From a virus, in IMG/VR virus record IMGVR_UViG_3300020185_000067, positions 1 through 50,902 of that record: a DNA stretch of 50,902 bases, one strand, 5' to 3'. Position numbers and translations under genes: made by a program. The notes under the pieces were generated by a model that saw nothing but the letters and a program-made list of their open reading frames with translations, was not told where the DNA came from and ran no database searches. Positions 13,790-49,223 of the stretch are shown one piece after another. Numbering within the stretch: position 1 is the stretch's first letter; each line of letters starts with the position of its first letter.

Positions 13790-14736
13790 AAAATGTAGTT
13801 ATAATAGACGCGCTCAACATGTTTTTACGGTCTTATGTGGTTTCTCCACATATGGATAAGAAAGGAATACCTGTAGGAGGCACGATAGGCTTCATCAAGA
13901 GCTTGCAGAAGGTCATACGTGACTTTAGTGCTGATGAGGTGATAGTCGCTTGGGATGGTCTCGATGGGTCCCGTAGGAAGCGCTCCTTGAACCCTGAGTA
14001 CAAGGCTGGAAGAAAGGCTGTTAGATTTAATCGAAGATCAATTGAGCTAAGTGATGACCAAGAGCAGATTAACAAGGGGTACCAACAATTAAGATTAATA
14101 GAGTATCTCAATAGCATACCTGTAATGCAACTTATAGCAGATTATACCGAGGCGGACGATATTATTGCTCATATTGTACAATCGAGCAGGTATGGTGGCT
14201 ATAAAAAGACAATTGTATCTTCCGATAAGGACTTCTTTCAACTGTGCAACTCCGAAACTCAGATATATAGGCCAACACAACGGAAGATCATGACCTTAGA
14301 ATCTGTTATTAAAGAGTTTAGTATTCACCCAAAAAACTTTGCCTTAGCTCGTGCAATGGCCGGAGACAAGTCAGATAATCTTCCTGGAGTCCGAGGAGTA
14401 GGGCTTAAGACTATTGCTAAGAAGTTCCCATACTTGATACGAGAAAACGTCTACAATGCTGACGATATCATTAGAGACTGTGCTATGGTCGGAAAGAAGC
14501 TGAAGATGCACCACACTATTCAGGCTAGTACCCAGCTTATTAAAGATAACTATCAGATCATGCAACTTTACTACCCAAACATCAAAACGTCGAATAGGGT
14601 TGATATAGATAAAGCACTATATGAATTCGAACCAGAGTTTGATAAACTTACATTTGATAAGATGCTATCTGATGATGATGCTATGCACTTGAACTTCTTA
14701 GATATGCGTTACGCATTCAGTAAAATGATAAAATAA
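13786..14736 (+). CDS. 5'-3' exonuclease / RNase H-type flap nuclease
   Basis: 316 aa. The PIN-like fold of phage 5' nucleases is clear: IIDALNMFLRSY, VAWDG near residue 50, EADDIIAHIV with acidic metal ligands, VSSDKDFFQL, and the helix-hairpin-helix DKSDNLPGVRGVGLKTI. This matches T4 RNase H and the PolI 5' nuclease domain, which remove RNA primers and flaps. It complements the short family A polymerase at 5.2 kb, which lacks such a domain. It lies last in the 12.4-14.7 kb operon. Confidence 0.88.
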   Translation: MKNVVIIDALNMFLRSYVVSPHMDKKGIPVGGTIGFIKSLQKVIRDFSADEVIVAWDGLDGSRRKRSLNPEYKAGRKAVRFNRRSIELSDDQEQINKGYQQLRLIEYLNSIPVMQLIADYTEADDIIAHIVQSSRYGGYKKTIVSSDKDFFQLCNSETQIYRPTQRKIMTLESVIKEFSIHPKNFALARAMAGDKSDNLPGVRGVGLKTIAKKFPYLIRENVYNADDIIRDCAMVGKKLKMHHTIQASTQLIKDNYQIMQLYYPNIKTSNRVDIDKALYEFEPEFDKLTFDKMLSDDDAMHLNFLDMRYAFSKMIK

Positions 14737-15607: not shown

Positions 15608-18019
15608 ATGAAAGAACTTACAAAGACCGAATCCTTTTCTCGCTTTGGGAAAAGCTTTCAAGAGAATATATGCCAACTTATGTTGGAAGATCGTCCATTT
15701 TTCGATCAAATAACAGAAGTGTTAGACATCAACTTCTTCGAGAAGAAATATCTTCAGATCTTCGCTAAAACATTGATAAACTATAGAGAAAAGTACAACA
15801 CTCACCCGAATCCAGAAGTAATGATGACCCTACTACGAACAGAGTTAGGGAATCATGATAAAGCAACAGCACAGCAGGTAAGAGAGTTTTATGCCCGTAT
15901 TCACACATCAGACGGCGTAGAACAAACTCTATTTATAAAAGACAAGTCAATCGACTTTTGCCGAAAGCAATCATTGAAAACAGCCATGTTGAAGTCTGCG
16001 AAGTTGCTTAATTCTTCCTCTTTTGATGAAATTGAGAAGGTTATTAAAGATGCTTTGGTTCTCGGTACGGATAATGACTTTGGTCATGATTTCCACAAGG
16101 ACACATTGTTGCGATTTGAAGAGGCAGCTAGAAATCCAATCACAACAGGTTGGAGAAGAATGGACGAGATCATCAAAGGTGGCTTAGGAAGCTCAGAACT
16201 CGGTGTAGTTATCGCTCCGACTGGGTGCCATGCTATTGGTACTAAGATTATGTTATCAACTGGCGCAATGAAGAATGTTGAAGACGTAGTAGTTGGCGAC
16301 AAACTGATGGGACCTATCGGTTTTCGGACAGTTCTTCGATTATGTCGAGGAAATGAGATGATGTATGAAATCCAACCAACAAAGGGAAAATCCTTTGTTG
16401 TAAATGGTGAGCATATCCTATCTTTAGTACGAACTAATGATGGTACATCAAAATCCGGAACAGTTATCAACCTGACCGTAAACGAGTATAATCAGAAGAG
16501 CAATACATTCAAGCATATTCACAAACTGTACAGAAGTAAAGTGCAGGAGTTTGAAGGTAGTGCCTCAGTGAAGCATCCATATTTCGTGGGAGCCATGCTA
16601 GGTGACGGATCGACTTGTAATTATAACATGAGATTCACATCGGCAGATAGCGAGTTACTAAATGAGGTAACTCGAATCGTTGAGAATGATTTCAAAATGA
16701 GAGTTACTCGATATTCAAAACAGGACTCAGTTGCGGTTGATTTAGCATTGTATACTCAGAAAAGAGGTCAAAGAAATGAAGTTGGAGCTTTCTTCGAGGA
16801 CTTAGGTCTCCGGGGTTCAAAATCGGGAGACAAATTCATACCACAATCATACAAAACAGCTAGCGTTACAGATAGACTTGAGGTTCTTGCAGGATTGTTG
16901 GACACCGACGGAAGCCTGTCTAAAGGTTGCTATGACTATATCTCGAAGTCCCAGACTTTATCAGAGGATGTAGCCTTTATCGCTCGGTCTCTAGGTCTTG
17001 CAGCTTATGTTACTGAATGTGAAAAATCTTGTGGTGACTTTGTTGGAACTTATTATAGAGTTTCCATTAGTGGAGATTGCTGTATTATTCCTTCGAGATT
17101 AGAACGAAAGACGGCTTCGCCTAGAAAGCAAGTTAAGAGTGTGTTGAGAACAGGCTTCAAAGTACAACAACTTGTGGAAGACGACTTTTATGGCTTTACT
17201 TTGGATGGTGACCATTTATATCTAATGGAAGACTTCACAGTCACTCATAATAGTGGTAAGTCAATGGTTTTAGTGCATCTAGCCACACAGGCCCTGTTAC
17301 AAGGCAAGACAGTAGTATATTATACTCTAGAATTGAAAGATACGGTAGTTGGGCAACGATTTGATTGTTGTATTTCGGAAGTGGCTTTGCACGAGCATCG
17401 TCAGAGCAAAGAAGAAATCTTAAGAAAAATTGAAGATATTGATGGAACCCTCATAATTAAAGAGTACCCAACGAAGTCTGCATCTGTCTCAACGATAAAA
17501 AATCACATTGAGAAATTAAGAAAGAGAGGCATTGAGCCGGATATTGTATTAGTTGATTATGCGGATCTTTTGAGACCGCCAAGGGTAACAGGTGAAAAAA
17601 GACATGAATTGGAAGAAACTTACGAAAGCCTTCGAGGACTTGCTCAAACCTATGAAATCCCCGTGTGGACTGCCTCTCAAACCAATCGAGGCGGTCTTAA
17701 CGCTGAAGTCATCACGATGGAAGCGATCTCGGAATCCTTCAGCAAATGCTTCGTAGCGGACTTCATCTTCTCATTATCGAGAACAGTCCAAGATAAGCAG
17801 TCAAATAAGGGACGAATGTTCATTGCAAAGAACAGGAATGGTCCGGACGGCTTAGTATTCGATGCTTTTGTTGACTGGTCTGTCGTTAAGGTATCAATTC
17901 TTGATAGAAACGAGGGAGCTGAGGGTATGCAGAGCACAGGCGATGCTTTAACTACATTGAAAGCAAAATATGCAAAAGAACGCGAAAATAAAAAGTTATT
18001 ATCTACGATAAAGTCGTAG
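15608..18019 (+). CDS. 41: replicative DNA helicase (DnaB/gp41-like) interrupted by an intein
   Basis: 803 aa precursor, about 461 aa after splicing. The N-extein has the DnaB-type helical domain and GGLGSSELGVVIAPTG; the C-extein resumes with SGKSMVLVHLATQ, together rebuilding the Walker A APTG-SGKS. The C-extein also has VYYTLE, PDIVLVDYADLLRP (Walker B) and TASQTNRGG. Hexameric 5'-3' helicase that unwinds the fork, working with SSB and polymerase. The intein (residues 207-548) sits exactly inside the P-loop, so the protein is inactive until splicing. Starts after AGGAG at normal spacing. Confidence 0.9.
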   Translation: MKELTKTESFSRFGKSFQENICQLMLEDRPFFDQITEVLDINFFEKKYLQIFAKTLINYREKYNTHPNPEVMMTLLRTELGNHDKATAQQVREFYARIHTSDGVEQTLFIKDKSIDFCRKQSLKTAMLKSAKLLNSSSFDEIEKVIKDALVLGTDNDFGHDFHKDTLLRFEEAARNPITTGWRRMDEIIKGGLGSSELGVVIAPTGCHAIGTKIMLSTGAMKNVEDVVVGDKLMGPIGFRTVLRLCRGNEMMYEIQPTKGKSFVVNGEHILSLVRTNDGTSKSGTVINLTVNEYNQKSNTFKHIHKLYRSKVQEFEGSASVKHPYFVGAMLGDGSTCNYNMRFTSADSELLNEVTRIVENDFKMRVTRYSKQDSVAVDLALYTQKRGQRNEVGAFFEDLGLRGSKSGDKFIPQSYKTASVTDRLEVLAGLLDTDGSLSKGCYDYISKSQTLSEDVAFIARSLGLAAYVTECEKSCGDFVGTYYRVSISGDCCIIPSRLERKTASPRKQVKSVLRTGFKVQQLVEDDFYGFTLDGDHLYLMEDFTVTHNSGKSMVLVHLATQALLQGKTVVYYTLELKDTVVGQRFDCCISEVALHEHRQSKEEILRKIEDIDGTLIIKEYPTKSASVSTIKNHIEKLRKRGIEPDIVLVDYADLLRPPRVTGEKRHELEETYESLRGLAQTYEIPVWTASQTNRGGLNAEVITMEAISESFSKCFVADFIFSLSRTVQDKQSNKGRMFIAKNRNGPDGLVFDAFVDWSVVKVSILDRNEGAEGMQSTGDALTTLKAKYAKERENKKLLSTIKS
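16226..17251 (+). mobile_element. in-frame intein with LAGLIDADG homing endonuclease, inserted in the helicase P-loop
   Basis: 342 residues. It begins with Cys (PTG/CHAIGTKIML), has block A (NVEDVVVGDKL) and block B (VVNGEHILSL), and ends HLYLMEDFTVTHN/S, with the His-Asn pair and Ser as first C-extein residue. The centre has two LAGLIDADG motifs, VGAMLGDGST and LAGLLDTDGSL, so a homing endonuclease is present and both acidic residues are kept. Splicing and homing both look intact. Confidence 0.92.
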
Positions 18020-27588: not shown

Positions 27589-27650
27589 GATTTGGAACAG
27601 GTTCATGCTAGCTTGGGGGTATGATAAATGAGAAAGTAGGAGAAAATGGC

Positions 27651-32517: not shown

Positions 32518-34128
32518 ATGAAAAACGAAGCAATTATTGTTAACGGTAAAGAGCTTAGAAGTTCTGATTTTGTGGGACTACATGCCCACAGTGCGTTTAG
32601 TATGTTTGATGGTTTTGGATTGCCCCAAGATCATATGGATTTCGCTTATTCGAATGGTTCGAAAGCCCTTGCTTTAACTGATCATGGGTCAATGAATGGT
32701 CTGTCTCACCAACTTTTAAAGGCAAAGAAGATGAAGATGGAAGGAAAAGATTTCAAGCCAATCTTTGGAGTTGAAGCATATTACATTGAATCTGTAGAAG
32801 AGTGGAGTAAGCTCAGAGCGGAAATTGCTTTGGATAAAAAGAGAGCAAGAGAAGTCAAAAGTGGTTTATCCGCTGTTGTTATGGAGGACGGCCAACGAGA
32901 TGATAAGAGAGCATTATCTCGTAAGAGACATATCATTCTTCTAGCGCAAAACCAGAAGGGACTAGAGAATATCTATGAGATGGTTTCTAAGTCATACACT
33001 GGGGATTACTTCTATCGTAAGCCTCGTATCGATTTCGAATTGCTGAAGAAGCACTCAGATGGCGTTATCGTCACGACAGCATGTCTTGGTGGTATAGCTT
33101 CGGAAGCAGTGTGGAAACACCAAGATGAAGGCGAAGACGCTGTATATGATAGTATGTTGGCTGATCTAACGAAGTTTCGAGACCTACTGGGAGATAGATT
33201 CTACGCAGAGCTACAATGGAATAATGTACCAGAACAGCATATGTTGAATACTGTCCTAATTAGAGTAGCGAAGACACTTGGTGTTGAGCTGATATCAACT
33301 TGTGACTCACACTATCCAAACCCTGATGCTTGGAAAGGTAGAGAGCTATACAAGAGACTGGGTTGGCTCGGAAAGATGCCGGAGTGGATGAGTGATGAAA
33401 TTCCTGAAAGCGTTGAGGAGATCGGTTATGAACTATATCCAAAGAATGCTCATGAGATGTGGGAATCATATCGAAAGTATTCTAATATGCTCGGTGTTGC
33501 TTATGATGATGATATTGTTATGGACTCAATCACAAGAACGAGAGAGATTGCATTTGGACAAATTGAAGACTTTCTCCCTGATACTTCTGTGCAGCTTCCT
33601 TCTTTTATCGTACCAGATGATACTGATGCTGATACGTTTTTATCAGAAACTGCAAAGACTGCGTTAGATACTTACATTTCTAGTATGAAAGAGTCGAAAA
33701 AGAGAGAATATAGTAACAGATTGGACAAAGAACTCCTAATCATTGCATCTCAGAAGTTTTCGGAGTATTTTCTAGTAACAAAAGCTATTACTGACTTCTC
33801 TTGGAAATATACTTTCGTTGGTCCCGGTAGAGGCTCTGCGGCCGGGAGTTTGTTGGCGTTCTTACTAAAGATTACCCACATCGATCCAATCATGTGGAAC
33901 CTTCCTTTTGAGCGTTTTTTGACCAAAAGCAAGCTAGAGGGTTTTGAAACGAAAACAGGCGGATACAAAGAGCGAGGTGACTATATCAAGCTTACAAGCG
34001 ATAGTGGAAAAGAAATCACGTTAAGCCCAGAGCTATTCATCAAGGTGAAGAGGGGAGCTTTTGAGAGAGAGGTGATGGTTAAAAACCTTATCGAGGGGGA
34101 CGAAATCGTCTCTTTATTCAAAATTTAA
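32518..34128 (+). CDS. dnaE: DNA polymerase III alpha, N-terminal half (PHP and start of palm) with Hint-like C-terminal tail
   Basis: 536 aa. PHP domain from about residue 20: LHAHSAFSMFDG, LTDHGSMNG, PIFGVEAYYIE, TACLGG, STCDSHY. The palm starts with FVGPGRGSAAGSLLAFLL and PFERFLTKS near residues 435-470, as in bacterial C-family polymerases. There the protein leaves the polymerase pattern, and residues of about 485-536 (DYIKLTSDSGKEITLSPELF and VKNLIEGDEIVS) resemble the block B end of an intein N-half. The catalytic PDIDLDF motif is encoded in the next gene. The usual block A with N-terminal Cys is not seen. Confidence 0.85.
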   Translation: MKNEAIIVNGKELRSSDFVGLHAHSAFSMFDGFGLPQDHMDFAYSNGSKALALTDHGSMNGLSHQLLKAKKMKMEGKDFKPIFGVEAYYIESVEEWSKLRAEIALDKKRAREVKSGLSAVVMEDGQRDDKRALSRKRHIILLAQNQKGLENIYEMVSKSYTGDYFYRKPRIDFELLKKHSDGVIVTTACLGGIASEAVWKHQDEGEDAVYDSMLADLTKFRDLLGDRFYAELQWNNVPEQHMLNTVLIRVAKTLGVELISTCDSHYPNPDAWKGRELYKRLGWLGKMPEWMSDEIPESVEEIGYELYPKNAHEMWESYRKYSNMLGVAYDDDIVMDSITRTREIAFGQIEDFLPDTSVQLPSFIVPDDTDADTFLSETAKTALDTYISSMKESKKREYSNRLDKELLIIASQKFSEYFLVTKAITDFSWKYTFVGPGRGSAAGSLLAFLLKITHIDPIMWNLPFERFLTKSKLEGFETKTGGYKERGDYIKLTSDSGKEITLSPELFIKVKRGAFEREVMVKNLIEGDEIVSLFKI

Positions 34129-34149
34129 TATAAAACTAAGCAAAAGCAC

Positions 34150-34178
34150 TTGACCTAAGGTAGCAAACGAGTTACCTT
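34150..34178 (+). promoter_or_regulatory. promoter with overlapping inverted repeat before PolIII alpha, part 2
   Basis: TTGACC, 17 bp, TACCTT, weaker than the other copies. CCTAAGGTA and TACCTTAGG (34154-34181) form a perfect 9-bp inverted repeat that covers spacer and -10, so a hairpin or a repressor could control it. Confidence 0.55.
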
Positions 34179-34198
34179 AGGATAAACCGGGAGGGTTA

Positions 34199-36349
34199 AT
34201 GAACTTTAAGATCAATAAAATAGAGAAGCTAACTGACGTAGAATTAGAAATCGCAGTTGTAGCTAATGGTAGAAATGAAACTACTGAGGGCGTAACAGTC
34301 CACAACAGAAAAGAAACTTCGATGCCGGATATTGATCTTGACTTCGGAGATAACTCTCTCATTAAGGATAAAATGGTAGATGAGTGGGGATCTGATTCTG
34401 TAGCTTTCATTACGAATTACAACACTCTTCAACTTGCTTCTCTTATTAAGGATATCTCGAAGAGAGAAGGCGTCAACTTTATCGAGGTGAACCAAGTAAC
34501 TAAGATTATGGTAAAAGAAGCCACAGGTCCCGCAAAGAAAGCGAGAGGAATCAAAGCTGGTATGTATTCTCCAACGTTCCAAGATTTATGTGAGTATTCC
34601 ACGTCAGTTCAGGACTTCTTTGCAAAATACCCACACATCAAGTCACAAGTGCTTGGACTCGTCGGGCAGCCCCGCTCAATCGGTCGTCATGCCGCCGGAG
34701 CCATCATCGGAGACTATCTGCCTAGCAGAATGCCTTTAATCACTTCTAAGGGCATTAGACAGACTCCTTGGACAGAAGGTCAAAACGTTCGTCACTTGGA
34801 ACCTCTTGGATTCATTAAGTTTGATATCCTTGGCCTTGAGACATTGAAGACGTTCGAGGATGCTATCTATCGTATTCTTAGAAACAAAGGAGAAGAGGCA
34901 ACCTTTGAGAACGCTAAGAAGTGGTACTTCGCGAACTTGCACCCATCTGTGCTTGATATGAATGACCAAAAGGTGTACAAGGAAGTATTTCATGATGGTA
35001 ACTATGCCGGAACGTTTCAATTTATGAATGATGGTATGCAACGTTTGGGAACTTCATCTAAAGTATCTTCTTTGGAGGAAATCGCAACCGTTTCAGCCAC
35101 TTATCGTCCGGGACCATTGTCTGCGGGCGTGGATAAGTTGTACTTGAAAGCAAAGTTTAGTGCTGAGCCAATCAAATACGATCACCCAATCATTGAGAGA
35201 GTTTTGAGTAAGACCTTCGGGCTAATAATCTTCCAAGAGGATATCATGAATCTAGCTCATGCTCTGGGAGATGATATCTCAATGTCTGATGCGAATGTTC
35301 TTCGTAAGCTACTCACCAAACAGGGCCTAACAGGCAAAGTAAAAGAGAAGAAGGAAATCCTTCGAAAGAAGTTTATTCTTGGTTGCGAGAAAAATGGTCT
35401 GGGTTTCGTTAAAGGCAAGGCTCTCTGGGATAAGATGGAGTACTTCTCGGGATACGGATTTTCCAAAAATCATGCAATTCCATATTCTATCATCACTTTT
35501 CAGTGTGCTTGGTTACAGACATACTATAAGGATGAATGGGTATCAGCATTTTTGGACCATGAGCCCGCAAAACGTAAGGAATCAGCGATTAGTATTGCTC
35601 AATCATTAGGTTATAAGATTAAGGGACTGGACATCAATACTTCAGGGATGCAGTGGGAAGTGAGAGATGGAGTGCTAATCTCTCCACTCACAACAATCAA
35701 GGGATTAGGTCAGGCGGCCATTGAGGAAATCATCGAGAAGCGTCCATTTGCCTCTGTAGAGGAACTCTTGTTCGACAAAGGTGTGGTCGCACGGAAAGTT
35801 AATAAGAAGTCCCTAGATGCCCTTTGTAGAGCCGGAGCAATGGAATCATTGTTAGATGATAGGTTCTTTGGTACCAAACACTTCTGGTCAGCAGTTGTAG
35901 TTGATAAGCCAACGAACAAGAAGAAGCTTGGCTTGAACATTAAGAAGTACAGAAAAGAGGGAGACTTCTCCAAGTCTGAGCTCATTACAAACTATAAGAC
36001 TTTGACTGGTATATATCCGATCAATATGGTAGTACCTGCAAAGGCATATGCTTTTTTCAAGAGTCAGGGAATACTTCCAATCTCAGAGTATGATCCTGAT
36101 TTGGGGAAATGTTGGTGTGTCCCCACAGAAGTTGTAGAGAAGAAGACCAAAAGGGGTAAAGACTACTTCACTGTGAAAGTTATTGATTCAAACATGGAAG
36201 AAAAGAGGTTCAATTGTTGGGGAGTTAAATCAAAAGTGGATGTTGTACATTTGAATCGACTCTATGTTGTAGAGTGGCCAAAGTATGATGAAGCTTGGGG
36301 CTTCTCAACATCTGGTCCGATATCAAAGAATTGGAAGCTTTTAGGATAA
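34199..36349 (+). CDS. dnaE: DNA polymerase III alpha, C-terminal half (catalytic palm, fingers) preceded by a C-Hint segment
   Basis: 716 aa. Residues 1-36 (FKINKIEKLTDVELEIAV and TTEGVTVHN) match the C-half of a split intein, ending in His-Asn at 34301-34306. The polymerase resumes as RKETSMPDIDLDF, which carries the catalytic Asp pair; FIKFDILGLETL supplies the third. SIGRHAAGAII, YRPGPLSAG, IIFQEDIM, GYGFSKNHAIPYSIIT and the tandem HhH region (TTIKGLGQAAIEEI) follow. No clamp-binding tail is obvious. The first residue after HN is Arg, not Cys, Ser or Thr, so canonical trans-splicing looks unlikely. Confidence 0.87.
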   Translation: MNFKINKIEKLTDVELEIAVVANGRNETTEGVTVHNRKETSMPDIDLDFGDNSLIKDKMVDEWGSDSVAFITNYNTLQLASLIKDISKREGVNFIEVNQVTKIMVKEATGPAKKARGIKAGMYSPTFQDLCEYSTSVQDFFAKYPHIKSQVLGLVGQPRSIGRHAAGAIIGDYLPSRMPLITSKGIRQTPWTEGQNVRHLEPLGFIKFDILGLETLKTFEDAIYRILRNKGEEATFENAKKWYFANLHPSVLDMNDQKVYKEVFHDGNYAGTFQFMNDGMQRLGTSSKVSSLEEIATVSATYRPGPLSAGVDKLYLKAKFSAEPIKYDHPIIERVLSKTFGLIIFQEDIMNLAHALGDDISMSDANVLRKLLTKQGLTGKVKEKKEILRKKFILGCEKNGLGFVKGKALWDKMEYFSGYGFSKNHAIPYSIITFQCAWLQTYYKDEWVSAFLDHEPAKRKESAISIAQSLGYKIKGLDINTSGMQWEVRDGVLISPLTTIKGLGQAAIEEIIEKRPFASVEELLFDKGVVARKVNKKSLDALCRAGAMESLLDDRFFGTKHFWSAVVVDKPTNKKKLGLNIKKYRKEGDFSKSELITNYKTLTGIYPINMVVPAKAYAFFKSQGILPISEYDPDLGKCWCVPTEVVEKKTKRGKDYFTVKVIDSNMEEKRFNCWGVKSKVDVVHLNRLYVVEWPKYDEAWGFSTSGPISKNWKLLG

Positions 36350-42729: not shown

Positions 42730-44319
42730 ATGACCAAACACTTTAAAAACAATCTTGAATTATTTCAAGATCTTATGAAGGGAGTTAACATTCTTGCTGA
42801 TAACGTAGCCACGACCCTTGGGCCTAGAGGTCGAACCGTAGCAATGTATCATAGGGAGCAGAACGTCCCTGTGATCACAAAGGATGGAGTTACAGTAGCT
42901 GATTTTATTGAACTGGAGGATCCATTCCAGAACCTTGGAGTTCAAATCATAAAACAGGCAGCAAAGCAGACTGTAGAGGCAGCAGGCGACGGCACAACGA
43001 CTTCAACCGTACTCGCTCGTGCTATCCTTAAAGAAGGTCAAAGATATTTAGGAGCAGGAGTATCACCTGTAGAGTTAAAGCGCGGTATCGATAAGGCAGT
43101 TGAGTGTATCGTAGAGAGATTGGAAGCACAAGCTCGACCGATTGAAACAGTAGAGGACATACTCCACATCGCAACTATCTCAGCTAACAACGATAAGGCC
43201 ATTGGTACTCTAGTATCAACGGCAATTGATAAGGCAGGCAAGGATGGTTCCGTGTTGGTTGAAGAGGCGAGAAGCAATAGTACATCACTTGATCTCATTG
43301 AGGGCTTTAGATTCAACTCTGGTTACTCTAGTACATCAAGTCAGTTTATCAATAATGTAAGGTCAGCCTGTGTTGATCACGAGGGAGTTATTCTCTTAGT
43401 TACTGATGAAGCCATTACAACGGTAGAACAGATTATGCCCACACTTGAGATTGCAGCAAGGGATCGACGACCTTTATTAATCGTTTCGAATGATATTGAA
43501 GGCCAAGCTCTAGCATCATTGATTGCAAATGTTAGGCGACCCGATCACGCTAATCCAATGAAGATCGCTGCTGTGAAAGCTCCCAAGTATGGAGAAGAGC
43601 GCAGACAGATCCTCAAAGACTTATGTGCTTCAACTGGGGCGACATTTATCTCTAGAGAGGAAGGTCTAACTCTTCGTGATGTAAAACTAACTCACTTTGG
43701 TAACGCAACAAAGATTAACATGACAAAGGCTTGGACAACCATCATTGGCGGCTCCGGAGAGCGAGAAGGCATTGAAGATCGCATTGAAGCCATCAAGGTT
43801 GAGATACAGCAGACAGAAGACCTCCGGGACTGCGAGCGCCTACAAGAGAGGATTACACGCCTTGCTAGTGGTGTAGCGATCATCCGTGTTGGTGCCGCAA
43901 CTGAGGTTGAAATGATGGAGAAGAAACATCGTATTGACGATGCCTTGGAAGCTGTTCGCTCCGCTCAGGGGGAAGGTATTATTCCCGGTGGCGGAATTGC
44001 CCTCATTCGAGCCATATCGGGATTGGAAGTAGAGACAGATACAGAAGAACAACAGCTCGGGGTGCAGATCGTTCTGAGGGCTTGTGAAGCACCATTGAGA
44101 ACGATGGCGGAGAACGCAGGTGAGTCAGGCGATATCGTGTTACAGTCCGTTAGAAATGCTACTGGCGACACTGGGTATGACTTCTTGAACAGATGCATGG
44201 TCCAAGCTTACGAAGCAGGTATCGTTGACCCGAAAAAGGTTACCCGATGTGCACTTGAAAATGCTGCATCAGCGGCAGGAACTTTATTAACCACATCTCA
44301 TGCGATAGTGAATGTTTAG
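42730..44319 (+). CDS. groEL: GroEL chaperonin
   Basis: 529 aa. All ATP-site signatures are present: TLGPRGR, ITKDGVTVA, GDGTTTSTVLA, and EGIIPGGG near the C terminus; GAATEVEMMEKKHRIDDALEAV gives the hydrolysis Asp, quoted here by its start GAATEVEM and its Asp-containing RIDDAL. The apical region (43.2-43.7 kb) diverges more. The Gly-Met tail of bacterial GroEL is missing. It probably folds the major capsid or other phage proteins, with the GroES-like protein at 20 kb as cap or with the host GroES. It is preceded by a promoter and a leader terminator. Confidence 0.95.
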   Translation: MTKHFKNNLELFQDLMKGVNILADNVATTLGPRGRTVAMYHREQNVPVITKDGVTVADFIELEDPFQNLGVQIIKQAAKQTVEAAGDGTTTSTVLARAILKEGQRYLGAGVSPVELKRGIDKAVECIVERLEAQARPIETVEDILHIATISANNDKAIGTLVSTAIDKAGKDGSVLVEEARSNSTSLDLIEGFRFNSGYSSTSSQFINNVRSACVDHEGVILLVTDEAITTVEQIMPTLEIAARDRRPLLIVSNDIEGQALASLIANVRRPDHANPMKIAAVKAPKYGEERRQILKDLCASTGATFISREEGLTLRDVKLTHFGNATKINMTKAWTTIIGGSGEREGIEDRIEAIKVEIQQTEDLRDCERLQERITRLASGVAIIRVGAATEVEMMEKKHRIDDALEAVRSAQGEGIIPGGGIALIRAISGLEVETDTEEQQLGVQIVLRACEAPLRTMAENAGESGDIVLQSVRNATGDTGYDFLNRCMVQAYEAGIVDPKKVTRCALENAASAAGTLLTTSHAIVNV

Positions 44320-45954: not shown

Positions 45955-46170
45955 ATGGAAACTTTAAAGATAGGAACAGTATTGCTTATTGATGGGCGCA
46001 TTGCAATAATAATAAGCGTAACAGAATCTGGGACATGGCCAAAAGATGGAGAGGTGTGCTTGTCTAAATGTTACACTCTAAAATACACCAAAGGTGGAAG
46101 CAGACTTATGAGCTTCGCTGAGGTAGATGCTAGGTTTGACTCCGGAGGTTTAATAGTCCTTATTTTTTAG
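45955..46170 (+). CDS. small beta-barrel-like protein, 71 aa
   Basis: LKIGTVLLIDGRIAIIISV, then CLSKCYTLKY, continues the small-barrel family. Its ribosome binding site lies partly in the hairpin upstream. Directly followed by the C-rich repeat. Function unknown. Confidence 0.55.
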   Translation: METLKIGTVLLIDGRIAIIISVTESGTWPKDGEVCLSKCYTLKYTKGGSRLMSFAEVDARFDSGGLIVLIF

Positions 46171-46174
46171 GGGG

Positions 46175-46223
46175 CTACTACCCTACTACCCTACTACCCT
46201 ACTACCCCCCTACCCCCCTACCC
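46175..46223. repeat. C-rich tandem repeat (CTACTACC x4 then CCCCTA units)
   Basis: Four exact 8-bp units at 46175-46206 followed by CCCCTACCCCCCTACCC. The minus strand carries several G-runs of three or more, a G-quadruplex pattern. Confidence 0.85.
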
Positions 46224-46236
46224 AAGATGGAAGCAG

Positions 46237-46488
46237 ATGATTGAATACGAAGGAATAACCTATAAAGTCGGAGACCTGCTGGTAGATATAGCAGGATATA
46301 TATATGTGGTTGTAGCCATAGAGGGAAGCCTCCTATCATCTTCGAGAGTACACAACATAGGAGACTTCCATCGCACCGATGGGTCTCTATCCTTATTGGG
46401 CGTCATCGAATTTGCGGAAAAGCGAAGCCGTCAGCTTCGAATCATATCGGAGTGGGATTTAAGTCACGAGTGGATAAGAAAGCTATGA
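46237..46488 (+). CDS. small beta-barrel-like protein, 83 aa
   Basis: YKVGDLLVDIAGYIYVVVAI, then SLSLLGVIEFAEKR, follows the pattern of the preceding small gene. Weak ribosome binding site (GGAAG). Function unknown; last gene before the gene-free locus. Confidence 0.55.
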   Translation: MIEYEGITYKVGDLLVDIAGYIYVVVAIEGSLLSSSRVHNIGDFHRTDGSLSLLGVIEFAEKRSRQLRIISEWDLSHEWIRKL

Positions 46489-46563
46489 AATATAGAATAC
46501 TTACACAAGTACATAATGTTGAAAAGAAAAATCGTCAGGATCAGACTCAGAGCTCCTAGGCAT

Positions 46564-46594
46564 AAAAAAAAGCCCTTCACGTTAGTGAAGAGCT
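46564..46594 (-). terminator. minus-strand intrinsic terminator
   Basis: Read on the minus strand: AGCT, CTTCAC-TAAC-GTGAAG, GGCT, then eight T. It has no T-run on the plus strand. Confidence 0.75.
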
Positions 46595-46665
46595 GCGGGA
46601 TATCGATATGACCTAGGGCGGCTACTAGATATTACTCTATGAGTGAGCATAAATCAGGAGCCCTA

Positions 46666-46780
46666 TTTTTTAGTTACCGTTGATTTAATTTTTTAGTTAC
46701 CGTTGATTTAATTTTTTAGTTACCGTTGATTTAATTTTTTAGTTACCGTTGATTTAATTTTTTAGTTACCGTTTAAATAT
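46666..46780. repeat. 23-bp direct repeat, nearly five tandem copies
   Basis: The unit TTTTTTAGTTACCGTTGATTTAA occurs in four perfect copies and one partial (described as six T, then AGTTACCGT, then TGATTTAA). Spacing is exact. Iteron-like. Confidence 0.9.
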
Positions 46781-46928
46781 GCACCATCTAAAAGAACAAA
46801 AAACTTTACATAACTAAGGTCTTGCCCAAAGCTATGAAAAAACGTCTTCGAGAATGGGCTTGTAGCCTATCCAAAACATATAAAAGGGTCATAAGCAAGA
46901 CTAGAGGAAAGAGTGGCTATTTATGCCT

Positions 46929-46956
46929 GTGACCTAGCTTTAAACGCTTGGGTCAC
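46929..46956. other. stem-loop GTGACC/GGTCAC
   Basis: A 6-bp perfect stem with an inner GC/GC-containing 16-nt loop (TAGCTTTAAACGCTTG). Either strand could fold. Confidence 0.5.
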
Positions 46957-46997
46957 TCTACTTTGTAGATTTCTCTCTAGTATTTCTAATGAAGATT

Positions 46998-47073
46998 GTT
47001 AAAACAACAAAAAGTCCGATTATTTAAGGTTTGGTTACTCCAAAATAATTAGTAGGTCCTTGCGTTGTTTTAA
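46998..47073. other. nested stem-loop with perfect 10-bp outer stem
   Basis: TTAAAACAAC and GTTGTTTTAA form the outer stem, GATTAT/ATAATT an inner stem and TTTGG-TTACT-CCAAA the top hairpin, all in order. Confidence 0.6.
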
Positions 47074-47106
47074 TGCAAAAACTTTACATAACTCGTTTAG
47101 GAGTGT

Positions 47107-47131
47107 AAAAAAAACTAAAGCTAGCTCTAGT
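47107..47131 (-). terminator. minus-strand terminator-like hairpin next to the minus promoter
   Basis: Minus strand ACTAGA-GCTAGC-TTTAGT followed by eight T, starting about 3 nt after the expected start point. Confidence 0.5.
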
Positions 47132-47140
47132 CCTGTCTAT

Positions 47141-47169
47141 AGTGTATCACGATATGGATAACCTGTCAA
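47141..47169 (-). promoter_or_regulatory. minus-strand sigma70-type promoter
   Basis: Read on the minus strand: TTGACA (47169-47164), 17 bp ending CGTGA, TACACT (47146-47141), then ATAGACAGG. The only such promoter noticed on the minus strand. Confidence 0.65.
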
Positions 47170-47262
47170 GCGAAATACTTTACATAACTCGTTTTGGTTG
47201 ATCGTAAAAAACCTATATATATAGAACGACTATTTTATTTTGATAAAAGTGCCCTAAATGGC

Positions 47263-47291
47263 TTGACGATATGATCAAAACGAATTACATT
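47263..47291 (+). promoter_or_regulatory. sigma70-type promoter for the 47.3-47.7 kb genes
   Basis: TTGACG, 17 bp, TACATT, then ACTTACATAAG. Confidence 0.7.
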
Positions 47292-47316
47292 ACTTACATA
47301 AGAAAGGGAGTATCAA

Positions 47317-47496
47317 ATGAATGATGAAATTATAAAGCTTGGAACCTTTGTTAAAATCAAAGGTGGTGAACATACAGCTATTGTCGTTGGTACGGAAGTA
47401 AGCTCAAACAATGTACCAATATATCTGATACTCAGTAAGATTGTGAGTACTCCATTTCGGGCAACATCACAGGAATTTGAAATTATTGTATGGTAG
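47317..47496 (+). CDS. small beta-barrel-like protein, 59 aa
   Basis: ATG behind AAGGGAG. IKLGTFVKIKGGEHTAIVV, then PIYLILSKIV, ending FEIIVW, follows the small-barrel pattern ('GT.V.....a.VVG....i..y.I'). First gene after the gene-free locus. Function unknown. Confidence 0.6.
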   Translation: MNDEIIKLGTFVKIKGGEHTAIVVGTEVSSNNVPIYLILSKIVSTPFRATSQEFEIIVW

Positions 47497-47503
47497 GTGA
47501 AAA

Positions 47504-47713
47504 ATGAGCAAAAAAAAATACAATGAACTTCCTTTGGGAACTGTGGTCAAGCTTATTGCCTATGATGAAAGTGTTGTCTTTTCTGGTGGAAACAACGTCG
47601 GCATGATCGTTGGCTATGGAGCAGGATCTGGGTCATATTTATTTTATGAGATACGACTTGTAACAGGTCGGTATGAGATTACACAAAATTTCAATTTTGA
47701 AGTTATAGCATAA
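47504..47713 (+). CDS. small beta-barrel-like protein, 69 aa
   Basis: LPLGTVVKLIAYDE, GNNVGMIVGYGAG, YEIRLVTGRYEI, FEVIA; close to the preceding protein in layout, so probably a paralogue pair. Weak ribosome binding site (GGTG). Confidence 0.6.
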   Translation: MSKKKYNELPLGTVVKLIAYDESVVFSGGNNVGMIVGYGAGSGSYLFYEIRLVTGRYEITQNFNFEVIA

Positions 47714-47729
47714 AAGTTTATAATAATAC

Positions 47730-47758
47730 TTGACTACTTAGCTGAAACGAGTTACATT
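47730..47758 (+). promoter_or_regulatory. sigma70-type promoter for the 47.8-48.9 kb operon
   Basis: TTGACT, 17 bp ending ACGAGT, TACATT, then AATAATATAAT. Confidence 0.72.
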
Positions 47759-47802
47759 AATAATATAATAAACAGAAACTCAAAACCATAAAGGTGAAAA
47801 AT

Positions 47803-48006
47803 ATGAAAACTACCGAACTAGACACAGCAACAGCGATAATGATTGCTGAAAGCGTAATTGAGCCTGCATATCCTGAGCAATTCATCGAGGCTTGGCAACA
47901 CCTGATTGATAATGGTATGGTCTGGAAACTCCAAGGGTTTTTTGGAAGAACAGCCAAGACACTTATTTCCGAAGGTCTTTGTACCATGCCTACAGATAAA
48001 TCCTAA
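47803..48006 (+). CDS. DUF7417-like phage protein, 67 aa
   Basis: ATG with AAAGG 8 nt upstream. ATAIMIAESVIEPAYPEQFI, EAWQHLIDNGMVWKLQGFFGR, TAKTLISEGL (in parts) matches the widely spread small phage family recalled as DUF7417. Role unknown. Confidence 0.6.
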   Translation: MKTTELDTATAIMIAESVIEPAYPEQFIEAWQHLIDNGMVWKLQGFFGRTAKTLISEGLCTMPTDKS

Positions 48007-48026
48007 ACTATTGTCGGAGGTGACTT

Positions 48027-48581
48027 ATGAAGACTATCAGGAGTGGAGAATACGATTTAGGGAGAAGAAAGGATCTTCTTCTAAATGCTCTTTGTGAGGC
48101 TAATGAGATATATAAAAGAGACTTCTATCAGAAGATCATGATAGAGGGCAGAATTGGAGTTGGAGCAATTGTAGAAGTGAAGGCTCACACTATGATTAAG
48201 CCCCGAGCCTCTTTAATAACCCACATGGACCTTAAAACAGTCGGGGTGCAGAATTACTTAGGAACCCTATCTAGACACAGCATGAAACTGGCTCTAAGAA
48301 CAACGGGTGCGAGATTTAGACATGGTTTTTTTACTGCACCATTCGATATAGAATTAGGCTATAACTTGCAATTTCTAACAGCATATTACGGAGATAAAAT
48401 AGCAAGAGTGATAGTTGGGGTTGATACTAAAGTATCTCCTGAGTGGCTTCAAGACCATGAGAGCCTTGAAAAAGACGTAGCCTCCAACGAATTAGATCAC
48501 TTAACAGGGTATAGCGAGGTTTTGAGGAAATTCCACCCAAAAGGAAACGCCATATCCAAGTCAATTTGGAGTAGAATTTAA
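48027..48581 (+). CDS. hypothetical protein, 184 aa, paralogue of the zinc-knuckle protein core
   Basis: RIGVGAIVEVKAHT, then ASLITHMDLKTV, then YLGTLSRHSMKLAL, aligns loosely with LSVGAVVQVERNVG, LLTGLITQTNMEKL and CMIGAYSSAPDSL of the protein at 49298, so both share one domain, here without zinc knuckles. Good GGAGG ribosome binding site. Function unknown. Confidence 0.55.
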   Translation: MKTIRSGEYDLGRRKDLLLNALCEANEIYKRDFYQKIMIEGRIGVGAIVEVKAHTMIKPRASLITHMDLKTVGVQNYLGTLSRHSMKLALRTTGARFRHGFFTAPFDIELGYNLQFLTAYYGDKIARVIVGVDTKVSPEWLQDHESLEKDVASNELDHLTGYSEVLRKFHPKGNAISKSIWSRI

Positions 48582-48615
48582 ATCATTAAAAAAATCATAA
48601 TAATAGGAGACAAAC

Positions 48616-48798
48616 ATGAATAAACAAGTTAAGTTTAGTGTAAGCATACCCGAGTCTTTAGCTGAAAAGCTTATAGGTATGTTGTTATTGTCCACAGGGG
48701 TAACCAATCCACCTAACCTACAAACATCCCCTACAAAGGAGACTAAGAAGTCATTTATGGGCTTTGGGAGAGACAACCATGTCGGAAAGGAAACATAA
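48616..48798 (+). CDS. small hypothetical protein, 60 aa
   Basis: ATG behind AGGAG. VKFSVSIPESLAEKLIGMLL, then Thr/Pro-rich tail. No family recognised. Overlaps the next small gene by 20 nt. Confidence 0.5.
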   Translation: MNKQVKFSVSIPESLAEKLIGMLLLSTGVTNPPNLQTSPTKETKKSFMGFGRDNHVGKET

Positions 48799-48928
48799 AA
48801 AAGTAGAGCCTCCAAAGGAAAGGAATTGGCTAGCTGTTCACGCTCACAATAGGAATGGCGGTCCAATGAAAGACCAAAAGAAGGAGGCTTCAAAAAAGAA
48901 GTGTAGAGGCAAAGTGAAGGAAAATTGA
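48779..48928 (+). CDS. small basic protein, 49 aa
   Basis: ERNWLAVHAHNRNGGPMKDQ is flanked by lysine-rich ends; similar 'WvAvHah.R.g...KDkkK' small proteins occur in many phages. Basic charge suggests nucleic-acid contact. Ribosome binding site GGGAGAG. Confidence 0.55.
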   Translation: MSERKHKKVEPPKERNWLAVHAHNRNGGPMKDQKKEASKKKCRGKVKEN

Positions 48929-48948
48929 AAAAAACTTCACAATAAAGC

Positions 48949-48977
48949 TTGACAAGATTAGCAGAACGAGTTACATT
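48949..48977 (+). promoter_or_regulatory. sigma70-type promoter (member of a duplicated module)
   Basis: TTGACA, 17 bp ending ACGAGT, TACATT, then ACTATTATAAC. The stretch from 48934 recurs almost unchanged at 49205. Confidence 0.78.
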
Positions 48978-49007
48978 ACTATTATAACCATAACAATGGA
49001 GTTCGAG

Positions 49008-49223
49008 ATGAACGACAAGGACCTTCACCCTATTGGAACGATATGTACTTTAAAATCAGGTAGGCTAGCTATGGTAGTCGGACATGACAGTAAAATAGAT
49101 GGTCTATGTAGCATACCAAGGCACAAAATTCTGGTGCTAAGTGGATTTAAGGTTGGAAGTACCTTTTCTGTCTCGAAAGAGAATATGGATTTAAGAATTA
49201 TAAAACTTCACAATAAAGCTTGA
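49008..49223 (+). CDS. small beta-barrel-like protein, 71 aa
   Basis: ATG 6 nt after GGAG. HPIGTICTLKSGRLAMVVGHD, KILVLSGFKVGSTFSVS follows the same pattern as the proteins at 47317 and 47504. Its 3' end overlaps the next promoter. Function unknown. Confidence 0.6.
   Translation: MNDKDLHPIGTICTLKSGRLAMVVGHDSKIDGLCSIPRHKILVLSGFKVGSTFSVSKENMDLRIIKLHNKA

Follow-up and report, generated by a model that had tools for sequence, protein, structure and literature searches.

The window, by which we mean the whole 50.9-kb stretch of viral DNA analysed here, carries practically every gene on the plus strand. Between the plus-strand genes at 46237-46488 and 47317-47496 lies a gap of 828 bp; the next-largest gap measures 578 bp, and the one after it, which contains a tRNA, 436 bp. 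The initial annotation had described a gene-free, repeat-rich locus in gene-dense surroundings, and the locus itself is confirmed, whereas the density around it was slightly overstated, as gaps of 100-580 bp exist elsewhere in the window. The longest stop-to-stop peptide in the gap reaches 52 aa, and a search of the gap for tRNA and tmRNA genes returned nothing. Translation of the gap in six frames gives 26 peptides, and for none of them is there a convincing homologue in the loci fetched from relatives, where several of the neighbouring genes do match. A protein frame conserved in relatives, against which the initial annotation had cautioned, was thus not found in those loci, and the reading of the gap as a protein-coding gene was rejected on this comparison. 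The features of the region are the following:

46489-47316, no strand: gene-free control locus, 828 bp, the longest gap of the window, with no open reading frame of at least 40 aa
46563-47135, minus strand: putative untranslated transcript running leftward, provided that transcription passes the first terminator; not conserved in relatives
46571-46594, minus strand: strong intrinsic terminator (dG -14.2), at which leftward transcription would stop short of the upstream plus-strand gene, giving an RNA of about 570 nt
46665-46773, plus strand: 4.7 tandem copies of the 23-bp unit ATTTTTTAGTTACCGTTGATTTA, 100% identical, overlapping the 100 bp where the gap is least stable
46803-46815, plus strand: box 1, ACTTTACATAACT; the same box occurs in the syntenic gaps of relatives
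47081-47093, plus strand: box 2, ACTTTACATAACT, an exact copy
47107-47131, minus strand: first terminator-like hairpin (an inverted repeat followed by 8 T), about 20 nt past the leftward start, dG about -6 kcal/mol
47141-47169, minus strand: leftward sigma70-type promoter, TTGACA-17-TACACT with an extended -10; counterparts in relatives
47177-47189, plus strand: box 3, ACTTTACATAACT, lying just upstream of the promoter that points left
47263-47291, plus strand: rightward sigma70-type promoter, TTGACG-17-TACATT, serving the first downstream gene
47317-47496, plus strand: first gene past the locus, 59 aa, of a short, paralogous-looking GTxVxI/GDLV type without a Pfam match

Several short, paralogous-looking proteins of this GTxVxI/GDLV type, belonging to no Pfam family, are encoded at 45955-49223 of the window, and they are also abundant in the early regions of relatives. 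Additionally, CTACTACC repeats lie close to short early genes, both in the window (46175-46223) and in four related contigs (L024, L037, L046 and L093).

The three copies of one motif that had been noticed in the gap are borne out as exact copies of ACTTTACATAACT, all in one orientation and with no further exact copy in the window. Their spacing is uneven (278 and 96 bp). When the tandem repeat was masked and the gap shuffled 1000 times by dinucleotides, no shuffle contained an 11-mer or 13-mer three times. This motif is conserved in relatives, unlike the stem-loops or the 23-bp repeats. In fact, the repeats described as iteron-like are real, as a tandem repeat such as that at 46665-46773 is expected zero times in shuffles, but they are not conserved as an array, and neither they nor the stem-loops of the window are shared by relatives. 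Matches to the 23-bp pattern were met as single copies in five other contigs, never arrayed, and were taken as chance. The gap is AT-rich both in the window and in the relatives, and it counts there among the stretches of the contig with the lowest duplex stability.

Transcription signals had been claimed on both strands, and they are indeed predicted there: the minus strand has a promoter paired with a terminator, and the plus strand has a promoter. The leftward promoter (47169-47141) is the top-scoring sigma70 promoter of the entire minus strand of the window, and a sequence resembling the plus-strand promoter at 47263 is also found upstream of other genes, at 27644 and 49200.

No relative emerged when 50,697 phage records were searched at the DNA level for near and distant matches, nor when a neighbouring 184-aa protein served as query. 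The window encodes a GroEL (42730-44319) with only about 44% identity in known phages. Searches of viral contigs guided by this GroEL brought up first 5 and later 80 related loci, of which the nearest have 69-76% identity; the sequences of two large relatives (191 kb) and of others were read piecewise. The genes of the relatives include portal, major head protein, tail sheath, terminase, PhoH, gp32, a RecA-type recombinase (RecA/UvsX) and DnaB, and as the portal, major head protein, sheath, gp32 and RecA/UvsX are among them, these phages are considered T4-like. The window itself encodes a UvsX-like recombinase, DnaB and a split PolIII alpha. Its 803-aa DnaB-like helicase (15608-18019) has a middle part that matches terminase families and is probably an intein, and its DNA polymerase III alpha is split across two adjacent genes (32518-36349). 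When bacterial and archaeal genomes were scanned for a possible host, only two contigs came up, both from metagenome-assembled genomes.

The comparison of homologous loci, which the initial annotation had called for, indicates that the boxes, their orientation, their place and mostly the leftward promoter are kept. Fifteen related uncultured T4-like contigs retain 2-6 copies of TTTACATAACT, always in the direction of the genes. In 13 of them (63-76% GroEL identity), the gap with the boxes lies 3.3-4.9 kb downstream of groEL, the distance in the window being 2.5 kb; the other two (L097 and L108) were fetched by pattern and have the same arrangement, so that the count of groEL distances rests on the 13. 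In the nearest relatives (L014, L015 and L016), the unit is AAAAAAC-TTTACATAACT-ATg, which resembles the unit of the window in its first part. Eight relatives can be aligned with one another, and among them the boxes are invariant while the spacers diverge; the lineage of the window can be aligned with its relatives in the boxes only. Clusters of boxes also occur elsewhere in these genomes, ahead of early genes, with up to about five in one of them (G007). In two further relatives (L026 and L027, at 14014-14348), a tmRNA gene with the tag ANNNYYFEQALAA occupies the gap downstream of groEL, near the place where others have the box array.

The large genes of the relatives all run one way, rightward, over 191 kb, and consequently the leftward promoter has no gene to serve. 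Its conservation was assessed with a simple, approximate sigma70 weight matrix. By this measure, the best minus-strand promoter of the contig falls inside this gap in eight cases (the window, L014, L015, L022, L024, L028 at site 5317, L037 and L044). A perfect leftward TTGACA-17-TATAAT is present in six gaps (L014, L015, L028, L037, L097 and L108), and three (L031, L032 and L033) have a leftward TTGACA with a weaker -10. The opposing promoter scores 12-16 in 13 of the 16 primary loci versus a best score of 5.8-11.7 at other box clusters (G003 at 80 kb, G007 at 100-104 kb, G010 at 23 kb, L098 and L102), a comparison in which several contigs of one subclade are closely related, hence not independent, and in which AT-rich gaps are promoter-like by composition. 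For nine of 12 gaps, the observed score was reached in none of 60 mononucleotide shuffles. As the other clusters lack a strong opposing promoter, the primary locus is more than its boxes, which stand at no fixed distance from either promoter. Beside the early promoters of 12 relatives (L014-L016, L019, L022, L028, L037, L044, L048 and L093-L095) there is also an operator-like palindrome, GGWCA-N5-TGWCC, repeated up to six times in 6-11 kb and not found in the window.

Large non-coding RNAs of the GOLLD and ROOL kind had been suggested for this gap, and the suggestion is not supported. Scans of the gap with Rfam models, at gathering and permissive thresholds, gave no match to GOLLD, ROOL or any other family. 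The pairing that had been noted holds in part: the 573-nt minus-strand stretch folds better than its shuffles (z -3.4), but the plus strand does not clearly do so (z -1.8), and the stem-loops are not shared. The consensus fold of the eight alignable relatives is weak, at -14.9 kcal/mol for an alignment of 514 columns; its covariation term is unfavourable, and a compensatory change is seen in one of its 58 consensus pairs. The diverging spacers, the lack of covariation and the lack of an Rfam hit argue together against an RNA of the GOLLD or ROOL type, and in the alignment the invariant boxes amid diverging spacers are the pattern of protein-binding DNA. The minus-strand fold of the window nevertheless leaves room for an RNA specific to its lineage. 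A leftward untranslated transcript acting as RNA, about 20-40 nt long if it ends at the first terminator or about 570 nt if at the second, would agree with the minus-strand promoter, the strong terminator and the fold of the 573-nt form. A leftward promoter with a terminator-like hairpin within the next 44-158 nt is likewise present in L014 and L015. We consider such a locus unlikely, as the lengths, positions and sequences of the RNA would vary among relatives and the alignable subclade and the Rfam scans speak against it.

In one subclade (L022, L024, L028, L029, L031-L033, L037, L044, L046, L097 and L108, together with secondary clusters), the box is part of a larger unit, TTGCAAgAAnnGTGCCAA-N6-TTTACATAACT. 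All 42 units have exactly 6 bp between the two parts and an invariant GCAA; units were selected by TGCCAA and the box, and neither GCAA nor the 6-bp distance was a criterion. On the minus strand, the unit reads TTGGCAY-N5-TTGC, which we take to be the sigma54 -24/-12 consensus, with GG and GC kept in 42 of 42. We regard this likeness to sigma54 promoters as a resemblance. The window has no match to the element with up to one mismatch allowed, and no phage-encoded sigma54 or activator of it was found by search. No description of the box sequence or of the composite unit was found in the literature searched, and the composite unit has no clear match in known phages. The boxes could be the array recognised in a phage origin or switch of a new class. 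In the subclade, such an array would tie each box, at a fixed distance, to a sigma54 promoter of the host, and tandem sigma54 and sigma70 promoters would fire antisense RNA into a one-way genome, coupling the start of replication to the physiological state of the host; we consider this quite improbable.

At the level of sequence, the boxes, their place and orientation and the leftward promoter are conserved, with no gene and no conserved RNA structure. The locus is a conserved control site of an uncultured T4-like bacterial virus, at the left edge of its early-gene region, and more probably an origin of replication or a switch of early genes than a large structured RNA. As for its function, the locus combines, as oriE of T4 does, boxes in one orientation with weak, AT-rich DNA and an early-type promoter that opposes the genes, and an origin working like oriE is therefore placed first, as a tentative leading model with a close rival. 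In this model, a putative DNA-binding protein would occupy the direct TTTACATAACT boxes, and an early promoter of the host sigma70 type would fire leftward, against all genes. The resulting untranslated RNA would open the AT-rich array and prime leading-strand synthesis, while the second promoter would start the early genes rightward. In the window, the leftward RNA would cross two boxes and end near 47107 or 46565; in the subclade, it would continue past the array, antisense to the upstream genes, most contigs having no strong terminator for several hundred bases. The suggestion of a replication origin in the initial annotation is thus retained as possible by analogy, but the GC-skew switch expected of one is absent at the locus, and this counts against an origin. 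Also counted against it are the uneven spacing of the boxes, unlike that of classic iterons, the similar box clusters ahead of early genes elsewhere, the terminator-like hairpin about 20 nt past the leftward start in the window, a leftward promoter that is weak or not clear in three contigs (L016, L029 and L046), and the fact that no initiator protein was recognised. As a separate observation, GC skew is near zero or reversed in the early region of three genomes (G007 at 90-105 kb, G003 at 75-90 kb and G010 at 15-30 kb), where the genes run in the same direction as the rest.

The close rival, only slightly less probable in our view, is a control region for early transcription, in which a regulator of the phage or the host would act on the same-way boxes to switch strong divergent promoters, the leftward RNA being a by-product or an antisense regulator of upstream genes. 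It would account for the position of the box clusters, primary or secondary, which precede a short early gene and a sigma70-like promoter, for the operator-like palindrome beside these promoters in many relatives, for the link of the subclade boxes to a second element at a fixed distance, and for the missing skew switch. It leaves unexplained, however, why a near-consensus promoter without a gene ahead of it is kept at the primary locus only, and a fixed distance from the boxes to either promoter, which is lacking, would suit it better. The oriented boxes might instead serve another DNA transaction (partition, packaging or recombination), since direct same-way repeats are found at one main place and some further places; in G003 and G007, some of them lie about 15-22 kb further downstream, close to the other end of the early region with its low skew. 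This is very improbable, as the gene content is lytic and T4-like; the partition site proposed earlier finds no support either, with no partition family among the best matches listed for 62 G003 proteins.

Natural variants that keep the boxes, the opposing promoter and the synteny, with all else diverging, would open the unsettled role of the oriE repeats (PMC3016281) to comparison and mutation. The box array would also serve as a marker of the early region in uncultured T4-like phages.

Among known systems, GOLLD and ROOL RNAs share with the locus a gene-free phage stretch of similar length, but the locus has neither a covariance-model match nor a conserved RNA structure. Sigma54 promoters are approached by the subclade TGGCAC-N5-TTGC, with its invariant GG and GC and its box linked at a fixed 6 bp; unlike them, the element has no gene in the direction of transcription, and it is missing from the window and its nearest relatives. 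The stoperators of Cluster A mycobacteriophages are multiple asymmetric repressor sites that are spread genome-wide and serve a temperate repressor (PMC9283540). They are likewise short, asymmetric and in one orientation relative to transcription, whereas the boxes of the locus are clustered in the early region and no lysogeny gene was recognised. The closest parallel is T4 oriE, where a cluster of 12-nt direct repeats occupies the same place in close relatives and the promoter is of the early mode, although T4 origins have no common motif, no role has been established for the oriE iterons even in T4, and a switch in base-composition skew has been reported for oriE, F and G but not for A and C (PMC3016281). 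In the T4 record (NC_000866), the oriE primer RNA is annotated as complementary to the gene 5 transcript, and the regular repeats lie inside gene 5, every 24 nt, with a sequence unrelated to the boxes. Both loci belong to T4-like phages and have short direct repeats at a conserved place, an early-type promoter and an RNA antisense to plus-strand genes (for the locus, at sequence level only). The boxes, by contrast, are intergenic, unevenly spaced, of another sequence and at another place in the genome, with no skew switch. As the repeats thus differ from those of oriE in sequence, spacing and place, and activity is predicted only, the locus cannot be filed as oriE. Arrays of oriented repeats accompanied by promoters are nonetheless known from T4-like phages, and the locus, with its new box and composite unit, would be a new variant among them.
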